IMG/VR virus record: IMGVR_UViG_3300036760_000359
Coordinates: 1-44,736 of that record
Direction: 5' to 3' (one strand)
Length of the DNA stretch: 44,736 bases
Source: a virus
Positions 28,011-44,736 of this stretch are shown piece by piece. The notes below the pieces were generated by a model. That model made no database searches. It worked only from the letters and a program-made list of their open reading frames with translations, and was not told where the DNA came from. Each line of letters opens with the position of its first letter. Position 1 is the stretch's first letter. The translations under genes were made by a program, and so were the position numbers.

Positions 28011-28237
28011 GGTCGCTCCTTGAGAAGCTTGATCAATTTCTCTACATCGGCCAAGTGTTCCATTGGAGCCAGGACGTAGGCCACTTCAGTTTGTCTTGGA
28101 AGCTTTCCGATGCAGGGGAGATGAACAGCAAATCCCTGATCCTCTTCAACATAAATCGCTCCTCTTGACATCGCAGTCCCGCAAGCCTTGCAAGGCCCGA
28201 TTAGATTCAGTATCATCGTCCGTTGTCTTAAGGTCAT
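28007..28237 (-). CDS. Small zinc-binding-like protein
   Basis: A 76-aa protein with CKACG followed by HLPC about 25 residues later, a probable zinc knuckle. The C-terminal part is a charged helix (HLADVEKLIKLLKERP). The start at 28237 overlaps the previous stop as ATGA; a second ATG at 28216 is possible. It belongs to a chain of overlapping small genes. Function not recognised. Confidence 0.6.
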   Translation of the reverse strand: MTLRQRTMILNLIGPCKACGTAMSRGAIYVEEDQGFAVHLPCIGKLPRQTEVAYVLAPMEHLADVEKLIKLLKERP

Positions 28238-28455
28238 TTGCCTGGATAAGAAACCAACTCCGTGAAGTTGCCATCTTTCTGAGCGACAGCTTTTGCTCCG
28301 AAGAATACAGCTTCCTCCACTTTCGTTTTGAAAATAGACTTCTCACGACACTCAGGCATTAGCTCAAGAGCCTTATTCACGGCTGCGGATATTCCGGCTT
28401 TGAGATCATGCATTTCCTGAAAACCCTTTTCGCTTAACTTGTGTGATTCAAACAT
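28234..28455 (-). CDS. Acb2-like protein (possible cyclic-nucleotide sponge, anti-CBASS)
   Basis: A 73-aa protein predicted to be an alpha-helical hairpin. The C-terminal helix carries ECREKSIFKTKVEEAVFFGA (key residues R37, E38, T44, K45, E47, E48), which fits the R-E-x-S-x-x-x-TK-x-EEA-x-x-W/F pattern of the Acb2/Tad1 hairpin family. The first helix begins KLSEKGFQEMHDLKAGISAA, like the family's first helix. Acb2 proteins bind cyclic di- and trinucleotides and block CBASS/Thoeris-type signalling. AGGAGG precedes the ATG. The match is by eye; the usual W is F here, and ligand binding is not shown. Confidence 0.55.
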   Translation of the reverse strand: MFESHKLSEKGFQEMHDLKAGISAAVNKALELMPECREKSIFKTKVEEAVFFGAKAVAQKDGNFTELVSYPGK

Positions 28456-30403: not shown

Positions 30404-30616
30404 CTATTCGGGTGTCAAGCCCGTACACATTTTATTTCTGGCGAGCGTTAGCTTGATGGTTCCACAGACGGCGCATTCGTAAACGCCACACCGAAGTCTC
30501 GTCTCTTTCCAAACGTGCTGGCCGTTCTTAGGGTACTCGTAACAAGGCACTTGGGAATCGTTTTCAAACTTGACGCCAGTGCCGAAACAGTGTTGGCAGT
30601 CGCGCCACTTCTTCAC
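30404..30616 (-). CDS. Small cysteine-rich (zinc-ribbon) protein
   Basis: A 70-aa protein with CQHCFGTG near the start and YECAVCGTIK toward the C-terminus, plus additional cysteines between them. This is a likely zinc-ribbon fold like many phage accessory proteins. It starts at 30616, overlapping the small-terminase stop as ATGA. A 43-bp gap with the next gene's ribosome site follows. Function unknown. Confidence 0.6.
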   Translation of the reverse strand: MKKWRDCQHCFGTGVKFENDSQVPCYEYPKNGQHVWKETRLRCGVYECAVCGTIKLTLARNKMCTGLTPE

Positions 30617-31281
30617 AACGGATCTCCCACGTTACCGGCGGGCAAACTCAATGGAGCGACGAGAGGTAGAGTATCAGAAGGCACAGGAGGAGGATCCAAA
30701 TTAGGTCTGACAGGCTCGAGTGTTGTGGTCGCATCGACTACCTTATCGGGCTTTGTCAGCGATCCCCTTACTAAGTCCTCGAGGCTCACCTTCACATCAA
30801 CCTGAGTCTTGTCGATGAACATTCCCAAATTCTTCCCGAGTAACTCCAGTCCCTTCGTCTTATCCCAGAATCTCACCTTCTTCGTCCACCCGATTTGCAC
30901 CTTCTCCCTACCTCGCTGCTCGAAGAGTTCCTCCGTCTCTATAGACTGAATGCACCTTGCAATCGCTTCCGGCCAAAGGTCAACCGGCTTCATGCTACCG
31001 TCGCTACTGAATATTTCCCTAATATCCGAGGCGGCAATAGCGCGTAGCTCGTCAAGCACCACCTCAACCGCATTCTCCCTACAGTCCTTCTTACAGTCAT
31101 CAAACCGAGTAGCGCGGGTAGTGTCCTTCCTAATCCAACAAAGCATCGAACCAACCGGCACCGCCCAAATTTTACAAAGAGACCGGAGCGACTGGCCTTC
31201 GGCTACGTGAGCGCAAATAGTATCCATCGTCGAAGGGTCGTCGAAGAGGTCTTGCAGGTTTCTACGTAAGTCAGTGTTCAT
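30613..31281 (-). CDS. terS: Terminase small subunit
   Basis: A 222-aa protein. I choose ATG 31281; a TTG at 31293 is in frame but less likely. N-terminal HTH-like segment: DTICAHVAEGQSLRSLCKIW then PVGSMLCWIRKD. Oligomerisation core: REIFSSDGSMKPVDLWPEAI ... GLELLGKNLGMF, typical of small terminases that recognise the pac site. The C-terminal tail is proline-rich. It is the first gene of the long minus-strand transcript and is separated from terL by a 3-kb cassette. The pac site may lie within or just upstream of this gene. Confidence 0.85.
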   Translation of the reverse strand: MNTDLRRNLQDLFDDPSTMDTICAHVAEGQSLRSLCKIWAVPVGSMLCWIRKDTTRATRFDDCKKDCRENAVEVVLDELRAIAASDIREIFSSDGSMKPVDLWPEAIARCIQSIETEELFEQRGREKVQIGWTKKVRFWDKTKGLELLGKNLGMFIDKTQVDVKVSLEDLVRGSLTKPDKVVDATTTLEPVRPNLDPPPVPSDTLPLVAPLSLPAGNVGDPL

Positions 31282-31309
31282 CGTCTCGCCCAAAGGGTAA
31301 CTTGACTTT

Positions 31310-31323: not shown

Positions 31324-31639
31324 TTTTTTTAAAAAATTTTTCTAGCCGAAAAGCTCAAGCGTTTCCTGTATATAGAGGACTCAGTGCGTCAACACAGAGC
31401 GTAGCTTATTTTTAGGGAAAACGGCGGGGAGTGGCTGCCCCCACCCGTCGCGCATCTAATAGGCGGGGGTCGACAGCGCCGAGGTCGATGCAAAAGCATT
31501 CTGACTGAATGCATCAGCCCAAGTAGACTGACAGAATACGGCCACAGCTTGAATGATCACACTCGGTCTCCGATCATCTTTAGATCCCTCGGTCGCATTC
31601 GGTTTGAATACACCGGATCGGAAGTCGGTCTACCCAAGT

Positions 31640-31889
31640 GCTACCCTTGACGCAGACCTTTGTGCGTGAATGCTACCGTGTAACCCCTACTACCCCTGTT
31701 TACATGGACTTTCCACGCGCTATTGGATACCCCATACCCTGTAAATAATACATACTATACGCTATACGCTATATACTATCTATAATACTATATATATATA
31801 TAGGTAGCATAGGTAGCAGGGGTATACTAGTAGCGTATTCAAGTAGTTAACGCGCTACCTCAACGCTACCCCTGCCAATCCTCGGTAGC
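31640..31889. repeat. GGTAGC/TACCCCTG repeats around an AT-rich tract (origin candidate)
   Basis: GCTACC occurs at 31640, 31672, 31854 and 31865, and GGTAGC at 31803, 31812 and 31884. The longer core TACCCCTG (or its complement) occurs near 31691, 31815 and 31868. Between these lies an almost pure A/T tract (31745-31800) with TATACGC direct repeats and a TA run. Iteron-like repeats flanking an easily melted tract are classic for replication origins. No replication initiator gene is adjacent, so the call is inference. Confidence 0.55.
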
Positions 31890-32057
31890 ATGCCTAAAAG
31901 TTAGACACTGTATTCCAATTGTATACACAAAAGGCAGGCTCAACGCGGTTTGGCATTCAAACTGCAAAGAGCACTATGCATCGGCGTTGCAATTTCGCAG
32001 CGCCAAACAAACCGCGTCAATCGGCTCAAACCGAGCGACGCAAACAAGGAGAATACA

Positions 32058-32333
32058 GTGAGTGTAAAATTAAACCTAAACGAACAAGCGATCGTCAACG
32101 GGCTACCGGAAGCTATGCGACAAGCGGCTACCGACAGCATCTTGGCTCAAAAAACCAAGACTATGGAACGCGTGACAAAAAACCGCAGTGAGTTTTCGTC
32201 AAGAATAGTTGACGACAAACTCATCGTATACGGGCTTGGGAATCGTTTCCCAGTCACGTTGAGAAAAGCGGGCTGGACTGCGATCATCAACCACGTTGAG
32301 GATCTCAAGGCACAGGTCGCGAAACTCAAGTAG
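32058..32333 (+). CDS. Small conserved phage protein in the control region
   Basis: A 91-aa protein starting at GTG 32058 (GTGAGTGTAAAATT), with AAGGAG upstream; the open frame begins at 31950 but no ribosome site supports that. The C-terminal half (DDKLIVYGLGNRFPVTLRKA then GWTAIINHVEDLKAQV) follows a pattern of small phage proteins of unknown function (strand-turn GLG.RFPVTL). It is the only gene inside the 1.6-kb repeat-rich region and could encode the protein that binds those repeats, although no HTH is visible. A terminator follows. Confidence 0.7.
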   Translation: MSVKLNLNEQAIVNGLPEAMRQAATDSILAQKTKTMERVTKNRSEFSSRIVDDKLIVYGLGNRFPVTLRKAGWTAIINHVEDLKAQVAKLK

Positions 32334-32340
32334 TTAAGAA

Positions 32341-32380
32341 TGCCCGCACGATCCGTCAAGGTGACTGCGGGTATTTTTTT
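32341..32380 (+). terminator. Rho-independent terminator
   Basis: The stem TGCCCGCA / TGCGGGTA (CCCGCA at 32343-32348 pairs with TGCGGG at 32366-32371) is followed by a run of seven T (32374-32380). It lies 10 bp after the stop of the 91-aa gene and ends its transcript. The loop sequence CGTCAAGGTGA recurs near 32468. Confidence 0.8.
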
Positions 32381-32608
32381 GCATTGAGTGTATTCTCAGA
32401 GAATACGCATTCCGTGAGTGCGGCGCGTATTCAAAGAGATCATCCGACTACCGATGCATTCCCCTCAACGTCAAGGTGATCGCAGCACTCTATGCATTCC
32501 AGCGCGTATTATGAGGCATTCCCAAGCGGCGTTGAGACCGCGATCGTCAACGTCTCGATCCCTGTCACGCGATCCAAAGATCGCGCGCGATCTATTAAGA
32601 CAAAAATT

Positions 32609-32752
32609 CAGGCACGCTGGCTAATGATTGGACGATCGCCCAAAACTTCTGCGTATTCTTTCAGTATGCACCGCCAGCTAAGCCTGTTCAGGCACGCCGC
32701 GATCTTGACGTTGATTTTTGCAGGCACGATCCCTGCATTAAAAACAGGCACG
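32609..32752. repeat. CAGGCACG direct repeats
   Basis: Four direct copies of CAGGCACG start at 32609, 32689, 32721 and 32745, separated by 80, 32 and 24 bp, all multiples of eight. They lie between GAATRC palindromes in non-coding DNA. Their role is unknown; they may be binding sites for a second protein or remnants of a duplicated segment. Confidence 0.55.
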
Positions 32753-33090
32753 AATAGTGCGTGACCGCATTCCTGCGGAATACACGGACTGGCTGGCACT
32801 GGTATGACTTCAAGGCTTGGGTATGGTCATGGTCTATGACTATGGTCATGCCCCACTCACACCCTAAGGGTAGCTGTATTCATAGGGAATGCGGCTACCC
32901 TGCGGGGGAGAGTATGCCTTGAGAATACTGGGAGCTGTATTCAGAGTGTTTCAAGCCTAGGCGTATTCTACTTGGCTTCGTTACGCTGTTGGGATTTTCC
33001 GAGGTCTTTGTCGACGGGAAAAGCCTTCGTTTGTCCTAGATCCGCTTGGGGCGGTTTTACCGCCTTGAGTGTGAACTTTGAGATTTGAGA

Positions 33091-33150: not shown

Positions 33151-33786
33151 GTGAGTGTACCAAAACTAAAAGAGATGGGGAGTGAAAATCTCCTCTATCA
33201 AACGGATCCAAACTGGGTGTTTGGGTTAGAAGACGCTAACCACCAGTTCGGAATCGTCTACGAAATAACCAACATGGCCGATGCCACAGGAGAAGAGGAA
33301 TACGAAGATTATCCCTTTCTCGTCTCGGCAGAGATCATGGCGCACAAATGCCACAAGAGCTTTGATGAGCAGGGCTTTAGTGGCAAAGAATGTGAAGGAA
33401 GGGCCGACATCGAAAGCCTCCGCTACGACTGTAAACAGTACATGGGCGGCGTTCCGATTGACCACTTCTTGTCACTTGGAGTGAAAAACGGAAACGACGA
33501 AGGAGATGCGTTTGAGATCCTGGCTAAGAATTTTACACCGTTTGAAGCCAAAATCGTTACGCGAAAACCGACGTTCGGCACTTGGGCCGCTCAGAATGGG
33601 CCTAAGACACCCATTCGATATTTGCAATTTAAAACCGAAGCCGCAGCGACGAAGTACGTGATGCTCTTAGCAGAGAGGGCGGTTTGTATGTCCATGATGA
33701 TTGGCTTTCTTCTCGACAGGCCGATTAACATGATGGGCGACTCTGGATGGTCTGTCGTCGAAAAACAAGTGCGAGGTTGCAAATGA
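33151..33786 (+). CDS. Hypothetical early protein
   Basis: A 211-aa protein starting at GTG 33151 with AAGGAG upstream; the frame opens at 33085 without a ribosome site. Acidic N-terminal half (ITNMADATGEEEYEDYPFLV), two cysteine/histidine-bearing segments (AEIMAHKCHKSF, GKECEGRADI), and a C-terminal part ending VCMSMMIGFLLDRPINMMGD, which is hydrophobic but short. No family recognised. Its start and leader match those of the 91-aa gene at 32058, suggesting common translational control. Confidence 0.65.
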   Translation: MSVPKLKEMGSENLLYQTDPNWVFGLEDANHQFGIVYEITNMADATGEEEYEDYPFLVSAEIMAHKCHKSFDEQGFSGKECEGRADIESLRYDCKQYMGGVPIDHFLSLGVKNGNDEGDAFEILAKNFTPFEAKIVTRKPTFGTWAAQNGPKTPIRYLQFKTEAAATKYVMLLAERAVCMSMMIGFLLDRPINMMGDSGWSVVEKQVRGCK

Positions 33787-34176: not shown

Positions 34177-34644
34177 ATGCTAATACCAAAATTCAAAATA
34201 GACGCAAGCGACAGGCTTTATGTCGACGAGAAAAACATATCCAACGGGCATTGGCTATTGCGAAGGCAGTACATGAGCTTGCCGCAAATACCAAAGGCTT
34301 TTAAGGCGGTGGAGAACATCAAGAACGGCACTTATGCTATGGGACTTCGTGGTGGATGGGACAGGCCAGGGACCCCAGACATGGAGAGAATACTTCCGTC
34401 GAACATGGACGGATATAAAAAGCTAAACCCGATCCCTCAAGGGGTGATGTTCCATAATGAAAACTGGGTACAGGGCTACCGCTACGAGACGGAAGACAAA
34501 AGCCTCTCTGTTTTTGTTGCTACTCAATACGTGCCGCTCATGCAACTAGGAGAGTGTTTCGCGAAAGAAGAAAAGGCCCCCATTATTATTCAAGCGTGCG
34601 GTGAAACTGCGGCGGTTATCATGCCTTTAAGGGAGCCGAAATGA
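34177..34644 (+). CDS. Hypothetical early protein
   Basis: A 155-aa protein, first gene of a five-gene cluster. ATG 34177 has AAGGAGAGAAAA upstream. Composition is mixed alpha/beta (YRYETEDKSLSVFVATQYVP, then PIIIQACGETAAVIMPL). No membrane segment or recognised motif. The next gene overlaps by ATGA. Function unknown. Confidence 0.6.
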   Translation: MLIPKFKIDASDRLYVDEKNISNGHWLLRRQYMSLPQIPKAFKAVENIKNGTYAMGLRGGWDRPGTPDMERILPSNMDGYKKLNPIPQGVMFHNENWVQGYRYETEDKSLSVFVATQYVPLMQLGECFAKEEKAPIIIQACGETAAVIMPLREPK

Positions 34645-35699: not shown

Positions 35700-35834
35700 T
35701 TAGCTCAAGTCCGAATCGAAGAACGACATGATCTTATTCACGACCTTCTTAGCGAGCTGGTAGGCGCTACTGGCCCGCACCTTATCGTGAAACGCTTTTA
35801 ATTTTGCCTTGACTTTTTCAAAAAGGGATTTCAT
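35700..35834 (-). CDS. Small amphipathic basic protein (44 aa)
   Basis: A 44-aa protein starting at ATG 35834 with AGGAG seven bases upstream, overlapping the end of the primase-helicase gene by 17 bp. Nearly one amphipathic helix: MKSLFEKVKAKLKAFHDKVR then AYQLAKKVVNKIMSFFDSD. The frame extends to 35915 but only inside the primase gene. It may bind membrane or DNA; function unknown. Confidence 0.6.
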   Translation of the reverse strand: MKSLFEKVKAKLKAFHDKVRASSAYQLAKKVVNKIMSFFDSDLS

Positions 35835-38100
35835 TGACTGACTCCTGTATTCGTGGTTGTGGATCGGATAGCTCGTCCGGCTGCTTCTCCGTGTGTTCCC
35901 CGCTTCCGTTCCCATTACTCTTATCGGATTCTCCTATCTTAACCCAAACCTTTGAATTTTTCCCGCCTACCCGCCTCACCCTTCTATCCCACCCGAGTTG
36001 GTGGAAGCACCTAGCCACCCGCTTTTGAGCCATAGGATCAAAGCGATCGACCTCTCCCTTGAGGCAGTCTACCCAAATATCTCTCAAGGTCACGCACGCC
36101 GATTCCCTGAACGCCAGGTAAGGCCCGATGTCTTCTATCCAGGCGTCGAGGATTTGCCGACTTTCCTGTTGCATCAGCGTTTCTTCCATCGGCATTTCGT
36201 GCCAGGACGCACCGGCCTTAAGGCAATGCACGGCCTCGGCGAAAAAGAGGTTTCGGTTTTCTCGAATGTAAATGAGATCTATTTTTCCTACTTTTATCGG
36301 CCAGAATCTCCGTCCGCCTGTTGGGTCATTGAGATAAGCCGATTCGTTCGTGGATCCGGCAAAGATGCAAGTCCGCGGGTACTTCTGATTATACCGACCG
36401 TAAGAAACTCGGATGTCGTCGGAAGCGTTCGAGAGATCCTTCTTGATGATGTTGATGTCGACCTTCGAGAAGGAAGAGAGTTCCGCGATTTCAATGAGAA
36501 GCTTTCCTTGAAGTCCCTGGTAAAAATCTTTCTCTCCTGGGCGTGCGCTTGCCTGGGAATACCAATCCCCTCCGATAACAGAGAGAGCTGTCGACTTATA
36601 AGTGCCCTGTGCTCCCTCGAGAACAATCATCTCGTCAGCCTTGCAGCCAGGGGAATAAATTCTAGCCGCGAGAGAGATCCAGAAATTCCTTGAAGCGGCT
36701 CTTGTAAAAGCGGAATCCTCAGCGCCAAGCCCCTCGATAAAAAACCTTTCAATGCGCTCGGCTTTGTCCCACTCGAGAGTCTCCATCCAGTCTTTCGGCT
36801 CATTCTTCGGGTGTTGCCTCCCCCAAGTCATCGCGGCTTGGGCGACAAGAGTAGTGGGAACTTTTCTGATGTCGAGAATGCGCTGCAAGTAAATCGTTAA
36901 CTCGCTGTCGTCGTGCTCTGTCCACTGTCTCGCCTTCCCGTTCTCGCCTTTCGTGAAGTAGCGTCCGTGAAACTCGTCGTACCAAACCAGATCTTGCAAG
37001 TGTTCATCGACTTTAAAAAGCCGCATAATATTGTCGAGATTCACTATTGGTTGCCCCTGTCTTGTGAGAACGAGTTCAGCTCGTTGCCAGGTTATCATGG
37101 CGCTATTTGATGCCGTGCCGTTATCTTCTTCTTCGACTGGCTCGGCCCAGTCTTCTTTCGGCAAAACCTCCGCTTCGTCTAAAAGGCGCACTCTCGTTTT
37201 TGCCCAAGCGAAGAAGTCTTTTCCATTCCACCCATCGTTGATTGCGTCGGCTGCGTCCCACCCCTTTGAGTGGTCGCTTGGATCGATAACTTTAATTTCT
37301 GGGGAATGGTCTTTTAAGATCCTGGCAACTCCGGCCATCGCCTTAAGCCCTGGCTCGTCAGCGTCAGGCCATAGGAGGATTTTACGGCCATAAATCGGGG
37401 AGAAGTCTACCTTATTGTAAGAGTTCCCACCATTCGGCCAGCACATTACGATATAAGGGCCGCTGGCAAGCCTCCGAGCGGAGTCGCAAGCCTTTTCCCC
37501 TTCGACTAGCATAATAGGGGCTTCTGGGCGCAGAGAAAGCAGCTCAAGTCCGTACAATGGCCGCGGAGTGGGCCAGGATTTCATTGTGTACCGGCTGCCT
37601 TTTGTGCTCCATGTCCAAGGAATGATCTGCTTCTTCCCGCCGACCGGATCGTATCTGGCAATGTAGAAAAGAACATCGTCTTTCTCGGTTCGGTAACACC
37701 AATGCATTGAAGGCTTGCCGTATTCTTGGTGAAGCATTTGAGGAACTGGCTTATCTAGTGGAGGGGGGATGATCTCCGGCACCTCGGTTTTCGCAGCGAT
37801 TAGCTGAAAGCCAACTTCTGAAGCGAGCTGCTTGGCCGCCTCGCCTTGTCCGATATTATTTATTGCCGCCCAAAGAGAGATGAGATCGCCACCACGAAAC
37901 TGATCGGGATTAGCAAAGTCGCACCAAGCGCCGGTACGGACATTAACTCGGAAGGAATCTCCTGGCCCTCCGGTGATGTCACCGCACATATATTCTTGGC
38001 CTTTAAGTGTTCCGCCTGGCAACCATTTAGGTAGTAGAATCCTGGCTCGAGAGAGTAATTGGAATGATAGTCCTGAAAAATCAAGCTGGTTTGTAGCCAT
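35818..38100 (-). CDS. Primase-helicase (TOPRIM + VapE/D5-like helicase)
   Basis: A 760-aa replication protein. The N-terminal part has a primase-type fold with GTLKGQEYMCGDITG and WCDFANPDQFRGGDLISLW. A TOPRIM-like region begins with IMLVEGEKACDSARRL (about residue 195) and continues to KILLWPDADEPGLKAM. The C-terminal helicase of virulence-associated E type has Walker A EGAQGTYKST (near 498), then LLIEIAELSSF and TCIFAGSTNESAYLNDPTGG (about 577-597), and RRFWPI. It should prime and unwind DNA at the fork. No DNA polymerase is seen in the window, so the host enzyme is probably used. Confidence 0.87.
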   Translation of the reverse strand: MATNQLDFSGLSFQLLSRARILLPKWLPGGTLKGQEYMCGDITGGPGDSFRVNVRTGAWCDFANPDQFRGGDLISLWAAINNIGQGEAAKQLASEVGFQLIAAKTEVPEIIPPPLDKPVPQMLHQEYGKPSMHWCYRTEKDDVLFYIARYDPVGGKKQIIPWTWSTKGSRYTMKSWPTPRPLYGLELLSLRPEAPIMLVEGEKACDSARRLASGPYIVMCWPNGGNSYNKVDFSPIYGRKILLWPDADEPGLKAMAGVARILKDHSPEIKVIDPSDHSKGWDAADAINDGWNGKDFFAWAKTRVRLLDEAEVLPKEDWAEPVEEEDNGTASNSAMITWQRAELVLTRQGQPIVNLDNIMRLFKVDEHLQDLVWYDEFHGRYFTKGENGKARQWTEHDDSELTIYLQRILDIRKVPTTLVAQAAMTWGRQHPKNEPKDWMETLEWDKAERIERFFIEGLGAEDSAFTRAASRNFWISLAARIYSPGCKADEMIVLEGAQGTYKSTALSVIGGDWYSQASARPGEKDFYQGLQGKLLIEIAELSSFSKVDINIIKKDLSNASDDIRVSYGRYNQKYPRTCIFAGSTNESAYLNDPTGGRRFWPIKVGKIDLIYIRENRNLFFAEAVHCLKAGASWHEMPMEETLMQQESRQILDAWIEDIGPYLAFRESACVTLRDIWVDCLKGEVDRFDPMAQKRVARCFHQLGWDRRVRRVGGKNSKVWVKIGESDKSNGNGSGEHTEKQPDELSDPQPRIQESVNEIPF

Positions 38101-38426: not shown

Positions 38427-38897
38427 TCAAGCACTAGGCATCTCCGTTTGCCCAGGGCGTTTAATCTCAGGATGAAAAATAACAAACATGTGCGCCCCAC
38501 GAGGACCGCAGACAGCACCCTTCCAATCGGGTGGTGGTTGAAACTTAATGCGAAATGGAAACCGCTCGACAATACTAGCAAAAGGATTATGAGCAATGAA
38601 ATCTCTGTACCAACGGACAGAGTGATCACAAGGTAAAAGAGCCCCCGTTGTAACTCCGTGGACGGATTCCTCAACAGCTTTTCTCACCCATGGCTTTGGA
38701 TCAGAATAAGGGGGGTTCATCCAGCACTTACCTCCGACCGCCCACACCTTGTCTAATGCGTTGTCGTGTATGGTGAGGTAATCTTTGCACTTGTGATTTG
38801 CATCACTGGCACATACATCAAATGTAAATGGCCCGTAGATCGCATCGAGCTGTTCAAAAAGCCAGTTGGGAGTATGCCATTCATCGGTCAGTTTCAT
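38427..38897 (-). CDS. DNA N6-adenine methyltransferase (Dam-like)
   Basis: A 156-aa protein from ATG 38897 (MKLTDEWHTPNWLFEQLDAI). The catalytic motif is NPPYSD (residues 61-66); upstream FTFDVCASDANHKC forms the adenosylmethionine-binding side. This is the phage-type Dam family (PF05869-like). It may methylate phage DNA against restriction or modify host sites. GATC occurs often in the control region, which would be targets if it acts on GATC; that specificity is not shown. It overlaps the upstream gene by 17 bp. Confidence 0.85.
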   Translation of the reverse strand: MKLTDEWHTPNWLFEQLDAIYGPFTFDVCASDANHKCKDYLTIHDNALDKVWAVGGKCWMNPPYSDPKPWVRKAVEESVHGVTTGALLPCDHSVRWYRDFIAHNPFASIVERFPFRIKFQPPPDWKGAVCGPRGAHMFVIFHPEIKRPGQTEMPSA

Positions 38898-39099
38898 TCG
38901 CCACCCTTGACTCTGCAACAGCAACAAGCTCCTTAGCTCTATTTAACAAGTCTTCCTCACCGGCGATCCAGCCAGCACGATAAGCGAAAATTAAATCTGA
39001 CTCGAGCCTTGTCGCATAGTCCTGTTGAAACCCTTTCGCGAATTCTTTTGCCTTCTCTGCCAATCTATCATCTTGTAAAAATATCGGCGATTGCTCCAT
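38881..39099 (-). CDS. Small helical protein (72 aa)
   Basis: A 72-aa protein starting at ATG 39099 with GGGGGAGATA upstream, sharing TAATG with the helicase stop. Helical: DDRLAEKAKEFAKGFQQDYA, then FAYRAGWIAGEEDLLNRAKE. The pattern AGWIAGEEDLL resembles small phage proteins of unknown function. Lies between helicase and methylase genes. Confidence 0.6.
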   Translation of the reverse strand: MEQSPIFLQDDRLAEKAKEFAKGFQQDYATRLESDLIFAYRAGWIAGEEDLLNRAKELVAVAESRVANETDR

Positions 39100-40498: not shown

Positions 40499-40729
40499 TT
40501 ATATAGTTCGACCGTAGTCGAGATCGCGAGAAGTAATCGGAAGCTTGCGCCGTTTCGCTATCTTTAAGATAGTCAATCGCGCTGCCTTTGGGATCGTTCC
40601 GCCATATCCACCGCTGGTTTTCGGCGTCTGCCACCGAGACACCGAACCAGGGTGACGGCCAATAATAAAAGCGGCAGACCGAACCCCACCGAAAATTCTA
40701 ATCACGTATTTTGCCGGACTTAATTTCAT
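40499..40729 (-). CDS. Small Cro-like HTH regulator
   Basis: A 76-aa protein with an HTH: VIRIFGGVRSAAFIIGRHPG then SVSRWQTPKTSGGYGGTIPK, a Cro/YdaS-like arrangement (helix-turn-helix with V-S-R-W in the recognition helix). It is divergent from the exonuclease operon and starts at ATG 40729 with GGAGAATTA upstream. It probably binds the intergenic repeats at 40762-40776. No larger CI-type repressor or integrase is seen, so a lysogenic switch is not supported. Confidence 0.75.
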   Translation of the reverse strand: MKLSPAKYVIRIFGGVRSAAFIIGRHPGSVSRWQTPKTSGGYGGTIPKAARLTILKIAKRRKLPITSRDLDYGRTI

Positions 40730-43866: not shown

Positions 43867-44082
43867 ATGAGATGTAATTCAGGCAGACGATACGATCCGA
43901 AGCAACGCGAAGCTAAGATCAAGCTTATAATGAACGCGATGGAATCAGGACTTCAATTAAAAGAAGCCGCAATCGCATTCAGTGTTAGCCCCGAAACCGT
44001 TAGCCGTTGGAGGAAAGAATATGTTCTTACAAGACAAATCCGCGATAGAGATTGCCGAGAAAATAGTTGCTCAGCGCAATAA
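43867..44082 (+). CDS. HTH protein downstream of structured RNA
   Basis: A 71-aa protein with an HTH of transposase/recombinase style (ESGLQLKEAAIAFSVSPETV then SRWRKEY). ATG 43867 has no Shine-Dalgarno sequence; the preceding RNA element ends at 43857. A later ATG at 43930 also lacks a clear site. The C-terminal part overlaps the next gene by 62 bp and looks degenerate (RDRDCRENSCSAQ). It may be a small regulator. Confidence 0.6.
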   Translation: MRCNSGRRYDPKQREAKIKLIMNAMESGLQLKEAAIAFSVSPETVSRWRKEYVLTRQIRDRDCRENSCSAQ

Positions 44083-44308: not shown

Positions 44309-44736
44309 TCTGAGTTACCTTATTCACCAAAGCTACGGCTTCGGCCTCTGACATCGGTTTATTGAGAAGCTCCCTTGAATGCAAATAGATAAGTGTGGTC
44401 AAAACGCAGAGGTAAACAGTGAGGCCAGGGCGTACAAGGCCGCGGAAAAGATCAAGTAATACCAAAAGCCATGCTTGTCCTTGGGACGGGGTAACTTTCG
44501 CACTATATTTTTCTCCTTCTGAAAAACTTGCCGCGAACGATTTTGCATCCTCTGCTGATTCAGCTCCAGCCGCTTCAATGTCAGCGATCTTAGTTCTTGC
44601 CGCCCACTCTTGAGTCATCATCTCAGCTTGGGCTTTCATCATCTCAACTTCGTGCGCCATTTTTTCACGCGATGCCTGAAGGTCGAGCTGCTTGTTTTTG
44701 TAGTCGGCTATACGTTGTATAGCCACGCCGACAATG
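44229..44736 (-). CDS. Holin-like membrane protein, 3' part (start at 177 across the join)
   Basis: This is the main body of the 185-aa protein. After the hydrophobic N-terminus come about 60 charged, helix-prone residues rich in K, E, Q and A, then two predicted membrane segments (around VLLDLFRGLVRPGLTVYLC and ILYLTTSCLLWWFGV) separated by a short polar loop, then a basic tail. Charged helix plus C-terminal membrane hairpin is the layout of 3-TM holin-type proteins (PF11351-like) in podovirus lysis cassettes. Its last 80 bases overlap the plus-strand gene ending at 44308 tail to tail. An unrelated structural membrane protein remains possible. Confidence 0.65.
   Translation of the reverse strand, partial: IVGVAIQRIADYKNKQLDLQASREKMAHEVEMMKAQAEMMTQEWAARTKIADIEAAGAESAEDAKSFAASFSEGEKYSAKVTPSQGQAWLLVLLDLFRGLVRPGLTVYLCVLTTLIYLHSRELLNKPMSEAEAVALVNKVTQTILYLTTSCLLWWFGVRNRGKQPNVS
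44610..44736. repeat. Terminal direct repeat, right copy (assembly overlap)
   Basis: Exact second copy of bases 1-127. Removing one copy gives a circle of 44,609 bp. The minus-strand membrane-protein gene that ends at 44229 passes through this copy and takes its true start from position 177 on the other side of the join. Confidence 0.9.

Follow-up and report, generated by a model that had tools for sequence, protein, structure and literature searches.

A dense array of operator-like 17-bp dyads around a candidate replication origin in an uncultured phage

Introduction

Some phage genomes carry a repressor-binding site in many copies. The stoperators of mycobacteriophages are asymmetric, are bound by a monomer and are spread through the genome (PMC9283540). 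The repressor sites annotated in phage epsilon15 (Uetakevirus) are 17 bp long, ATTACC-N5-GGTAAT (N5 being any five bases), and occur in perfect and degenerate copies, and the PfiA/PfiT operator of phage Pf4 has the form AATTC-N5-GAATT (PMC7264888). Here we describe an array of sites of the form GYATTC-N5-GAATRC (Y, pyrimidine; R, purine) at positions 31496-32968 of the window, by which is meant the whole 44,736-base virus record IMGVR_UViG_3300036760_000359. The source is an uncultured bacterial virus (phage). With moderate confidence, the array is read as a dense operator field for one dimeric phage regulator, covering a divergent promoter region and a likely origin that resembles those of phage-inducible chromosomal islands (PICIs).

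Results and discussion

The array contains 26 GYATTC half-sites, all in noncoding DNA. A sequence-only reading had placed them there and judged them far above chance, and this was borne out: 2,000 dinucleotide shuffles of the 1,197 noncoding bases of the array gave a mean of 1.43 half-sites and a maximum of 7. GYATTC also forms the strongest hexamer cluster of the genome (26 copies against 1.94 expected, P ~1e-20). Perfect dyads with the five-base gap number five, against 0.001 expected from dinucleotide shuffling of the same bases, and pairs of half-sites at +11 also number five, against 0.13 when the 26 half-sites are placed at random. The coding sequence at 32058-32333, which lies inside the array, has no half-site, as had been claimed, and one two-mismatch dyad (32192). 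No perfect dyad was found elsewhere in the genome, and its only three two-mismatch dyads outside the array are in the left 15 kb.

The five perfect and three one-mismatch dyads that had been listed were all found as described. The perfect ones are GCATTC-tgact-GAATGC (31496-31512), GCATTC-ggttt-GAATAC (31595-31611), GTATTC-tcaga-GAATAC, which with an abutting third half-site GCATTC (32407-32412) occupies 32390-32412, GCATTC-ctgcg-GAATAC (32767-32783), and the dyad at 32876-32892. The last is the centre of a compound 31-bp palindrome, GGTAGC-t-GTATTC-atagg-GAATGC-g-GCTACC (32869-32899), in which it is joined to the iteron word of the candidate origin discussed below. The one-mismatch dyads are GTATTC-caatt-GTATAC (31910-31926), GTATTC-tttca-GTATGC (32653-32669) and GTATGC-cttga-GAATAC (32912-32928).

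The word is sharp, with a single free pyrimidine: GTATTC occurs 14 times and GCATTC 12 times, and the remaining one-mismatch neighbours 0-3 times each. When the sequence opposite each half-site was scored as a potential partner arm, the mean match was 4.12 of 6 bases at a gap of five and 0.65-2.12 at other gaps. Even the 13 weakest partners matched better at this gap (mean 2.46) than at the other gaps tested (mean 1.65, maximum 2.38), and G was retained at the first position in 11 of 16 imperfect partners. Because the partner match peaks at five bases and imperfect partners still favour G at their first position, we interpret the array as about 21 sites, each 17 bp long. Every site would pair a strong arm with a second one that may be either strong or weak, an arrangement familiar from repressor operators. 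A conserved hairpin was considered and rejected. Of the five perfect dyads, three would leave their Y and R positions without Watson-Crick pairing (two with C facing A and one with T facing G), and the symmetry is therefore better explained by protein contacts. A search for RNA families gave no credible match.

The same motif was found at the cI/cro control region of another phage. A search of a viral collection for two close dyads returned L265 (IMGVR_UViG_3300037590_000105), a 5.8-kb viral contig with five GTATTC-N5-GAATAC sites, two perfect and three with one mismatch, within 830 bases (1092-1922). These span a CI-like HTH_3 gene and a P22_Cro-family gene, and one lies in the divergent region between the two. 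The search criterion itself accounts for the two perfect dyads, but the other three sites and the location are independent of that selection.

The operator reading is favoured because the arms of the sites, strong or weak, keep one constant spacing, because L265 has the dyads at its cI/cro region and because epsilon15 has 17-bp repressor sites with the same five-base gap. Among the options raised by the sequence-only reading, a cluster of operators for a dimeric regulator is thus the best supported. The sites are two-fold symmetric, of constant spacing and noncoding, as in operator sets of the Cro/CI type. The binding protein would be phage-encoded and dimeric, similar in kind to Cro or CI, with one subunit on each GYATTC half-site and a 5-bp gap between the opposed half-sites. 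When occupied, the field would switch two divergent units: the terminase small subunit gene (terS) and the virion (late) genes leftward, and the genes from 32058 onward rightward.

Several observations weigh against this. No helix-turn-helix (HTH) family match was obtained for the neighbours of the array at 32058-32333, 33151-33786 and 34177-34644. No cognate repressor or Cro gene was identified next to the array or inside it, and about 8 kb separate it from the Cro-like gene. A scan of the array for promoters, which covers sigma-70 sites only, found nothing above the chance rate. The genome is most likely complete at 44,609 bases, despite the linear class of the record, because its ends share an exact direct terminal repeat of 127 bases (1-127 and 44610-44736); no match to an integrase family was found in it, and there is thus no evident lysogeny to maintain. 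About 21 sites at one locus is also far more than in L265, which has five, or in epsilon15, where a locus has a handful. Finally, the array is not conserved. Relatives 45-63% identical in the portal or VapE were compared, and the 35 portal relatives had no perfect dyad and just six scattered one-mismatch sites. The conservation in related phages that had been looked to as a test of the motif thus fails among these relatives, although the motif recurs in the immunity region of L265.

Single-protein searches of viral contigs with the terminase small subunit (TerS), the 91-residue protein encoded at 32058-32333 and VapE returned no close relative. In a scan of noncoding hexamers over the phage loci examined, the window's array ranked first, and the nearest rivals (L017 with its overlapping loci, and L022) were short, tightly packed tandem repeats. 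A scan of a genome collection for paired dyads gave 44 stretches; inspection of the eight densest showed repetitive genes and repeats, either tandem or dispersed, and nothing to suggest a relationship to this array. Two viral matches (L136 and L137) had two dyads each and modest half-site counts, two others (L190 and L266) were tandem repeats, probably coding, and a CYGTTC cluster in a further genome (G001) was mostly coding.

Candidate binding proteins

The Cro-like HTH protein encoded at 40499-40729 (minus strand; P22_Cro 0.003, carphisopro 0.003) had been put forward as a binder. The motif of the array is missing from its own promoter, an absence that also counts against the operator reading, and the promoters of eight closer homologues either contain different words or lack an exact dyad; the motif is present only for the Cro of L265, which is more distant. 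The two proteins are distant homologues, with 26% identity (E 4e-5, in a single comparison). The phage's own Cro-like protein is thus a poor candidate. A second HTH protein (43867-44082) resembles the L265 Cro recognition helix at 8 of 17 residues, which is not significant (E 0.43). The AlphaFold model of the 91-residue protein (predicted local distance difference test score, pLDDT, 78) gave no significant fold match, and that of the 211-residue protein encoded at 33151-33786 (pLDDT 42) was not used. TerS and VapE, predicted from their families to bind DNA, remain candidates under the alternative explanations considered below.

Two exact 17-bp dyads with a five-base gap, GTTGAG-N5-CTCAAC and GTTGGT-N5-ACCAAC, were also observed in another phage locus (L013:300-345), immediately 5' of a gene for a Cro-like protein that shares 50% identity with the window's.

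A candidate origin inside the array

The array spans the divergent intergenic region between terS and the rightward gene, together with a candidate replication origin at 31630-31889. The AT-richest 80 bp of the genome (31740-31819, 74% AT), a candidate unwinding element, is flanked by two sets of CTACC/GGTAG iterons, four on the left (31630, 31641, 31673 and 31690) and five on the right (31803, 31812, 31855, 31866 and 31884), as in PICI origins. No DnaA boxes were found near it. The same plan is seen 3' of VapE in relatives, each with its own word: GGTAAC in L034, GGTCAC in L017, GACATC in L021 and GGTAGC itself in L255. A significant word cluster around the AT-rich stretch was present in 28 of 53 VapE loci, on both sides of the stretch in 20 of them, as against two of 47 control stretches at an equal threshold. 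Because the VapE loci of relatives share this plan of iterons and AT-rich DNA, 31630-31889 is likely to be an origin, with GGTAGC rather than GYATTC as its predicted iteron word. The origin-like element lies immediately 3' of VapE in L034, L017, L016 and others, whereas in the window it is 4 kb from VapE. Iteron clusters around AT-rich DNA 3' of VapE were also noted at L209:7300-7610, L255:7640-7950, L021:2986-3250, L223 and other VapE loci.

The array meets the iterons at four half-sites: that at 31668 overlaps a GGTAGC iteron, that at 31835 abuts one, and those at 32876 and 32887 lie within two. Because the sites of the array interleave with and abut the origin iterons, they could also gate replication from this origin. 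A single dimeric protein might then decide replication and the reading of the late genes together, at one locus, in a phage with neither an integrase nor a recognisable CI. This joint switch is offered tentatively, and we regard it as rather doubtful.

These contacts bear also on another explanation, that the array is itself part of the origin. GYATTC would then be a second iteron word, providing extra sites for the initiator (VapE or a partner), as in iteron and copy-control clusters. The array does enclose the origin-like element, four of its half-sites touch GGTAGC and one compound palindrome unites both words. Moreover, the origin iteron 3' of VapE in L209 is GGTATTC, in seven copies on both sides of an AT-rich stretch, and the C-terminus of L209 VapE is among those most like that of the window's. 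C-terminal similarity sorts iteron words poorly, however, and with about 28 iteron sets a single match could arise by chance. The iterons of relatives cluster no more than about 200 bp from the AT-rich stretch, where the word in the window is GGTAGC, whereas GYATTC is densest 600-1,200 bp away, and a fixed five-base inverted spacing is untypical of these iterons. The explanation is considered less likely than the operator reading, although the L209 iteron speaks for keeping it in view. The suggestion in the sequence-only reading that the array may be an origin holds in so far as a PICI-like origin is found inside it, but the iterons of that origin are a different word.

Alternatively, the array might serve as a packaging (pac) site recognised by TerS, whose gene is its neighbour. 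The terS gene is 200 bp from the array, and the 127-bp terminal repeat fits the assembly of a circularly permuted, headful-packaged genome, headful packaging being presumed. The pac site of phage P1 is likewise a set of hexamers with one degenerate base. It is 162 bp long, however, so that the array has some nine times its length, and the array is made of dyads of fixed spacing. In L017 the DNA between VapE and terS contains the origin only. On balance a pac site seems rather improbable, although the adjacency of terS leaves it some weight.

The absence of an identified phage binder and the very high copy number at one place would suit a host protein, the phage either exploiting a host regulator or titrating it as a decoy. 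L265 carries the same dyad in a phage cI/cro region, however, and this explanation is given little weight. A centromere-like site of a plasmid-like prophage, a partition site being among the options raised earlier, is judged very improbable: the complete genome without integrase and the likeness of repeated palindromes to sopC-type centromeres would accommodate it, but no ParA, ParB, ParM-like or ParR protein was found among the annotated proteins scanned, which do not cover every small open reading frame, and nothing points to a plasmid prophage.

Gene setting

The virion module is epsilon15-like, with a portal protein 50% identical to that of epsilon15 and with major head, tail and lysis proteins, and the terminase large subunit is 52% identical to those of Xanthomonas phages SAC and CP2. 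The array lies 5' of terS (30613-31293, minus strand; PF03592, 3e-9), which opens the leftward virion operon. The 91-residue protein gene inside the array (32058-32333, plus strand) has no assigned function; a half-site GAATAC (32051-32056) sits between its ribosome-binding site and start codon. It is followed by a terminator-like hairpin, CCCGCA...TGCGGG with a T run (32343-32380, plus strand), which was found by eye, as its 17-base loop exceeds the scanner's limit. On its right the array is followed by several rightward genes without assigned function, of which the first encodes the 211-residue protein (33151-33786, plus strand). A leftward block encodes the VapE-like primase-helicase (35818-38100, minus strand; PF05272, 1e-64), which is the candidate origin-binding initiator, a VRR-nuclease, a Dam methylase, a helicase and the Cro-like protein; RecE- and RecT-like genes are rightward.

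Two further repeats were noted within the array. The element CAGGCACG occurs four times in 144 bases (32609-32752) and nowhere else in the genome, and nine GCGATC words, each with a GATC site, fall within 0.6 kb (32088-32704; 31 genome-wide), the Dam-family methylase being encoded at 38427-38927. Elsewhere, 28234-28455 encodes a 73-residue protein with an Acb2/Tad1 hairpin domain (PF24729, E 6e-7, a match that passes the cut-off), possibly a sponge acting against the defence systems CBASS (cyclic-oligonucleotide-based antiphage signalling system) or Thoeris.

Comparison with known systems

Dyad operators are already known. What is unusual here is their crowding, with about 21 of them at a single locus among the iterons of a likely origin, and the fact that neither an integrase nor a repressor was identified in this phage. 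The array provides a clear 17-bp target, repeated about 21 times, which could serve as bait for the binding protein in an otherwise unstudied phage group. Predicted origins across a wide range of uncultured phages would be a second gain.

In the PICI origins and those of Staphylococcus aureus pathogenicity islands (SaPIs) (PMC6092414), the likeness is to the layout of the candidate origin within the array and not to the array itself. The comparison suggests a candidate function only. In relatives such an origin is directly 3' of the primase-helicase gene, whereas in the window a block of rightward genes parts it from VapE.

A search of the literature for a similar core returned only the PfiA/PfiT operator of Pf4 (PMC7264888), which shares ATTC-N5-GAAT with the window's motif. 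That operator is a single site at the promoter of a toxin-antitoxin pair with a Phd-family antitoxin, whereas no such gene pair was recognised in the window. The mycobacteriophage L5-type stoperators (PMC9283540, PMC6550527) resemble the array in that a repressor site recurs many times in one phage genome. They differ in that the window's sites are dyads, all of the perfect ones lying within a single 1.5-kb locus.

Epsilon15 has a related virion module and repressor sites of the same length and gap as the window's, one of which (12-27) is directly before terS at 47. Its half-site word is different, its repressor gene has been identified, and its seven annotated sites are dispersed over the genome, in contrast to about 21 at one locus here. 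In the record of an epsilon15-like phage (L045:860-2198), a cluster of ATTACC half-sites around the repressor region, with perfect and degenerate N5 dyads, was also observed. The L265 control region has five sites to the window's 21 or so, uses GTATTC and never GCATTC, has CI-like and P22_Cro genes within its sites and shows no further kinship to the window, but it shares with the array the word, the 5-bp spacing and the combination of strong and weak arms.
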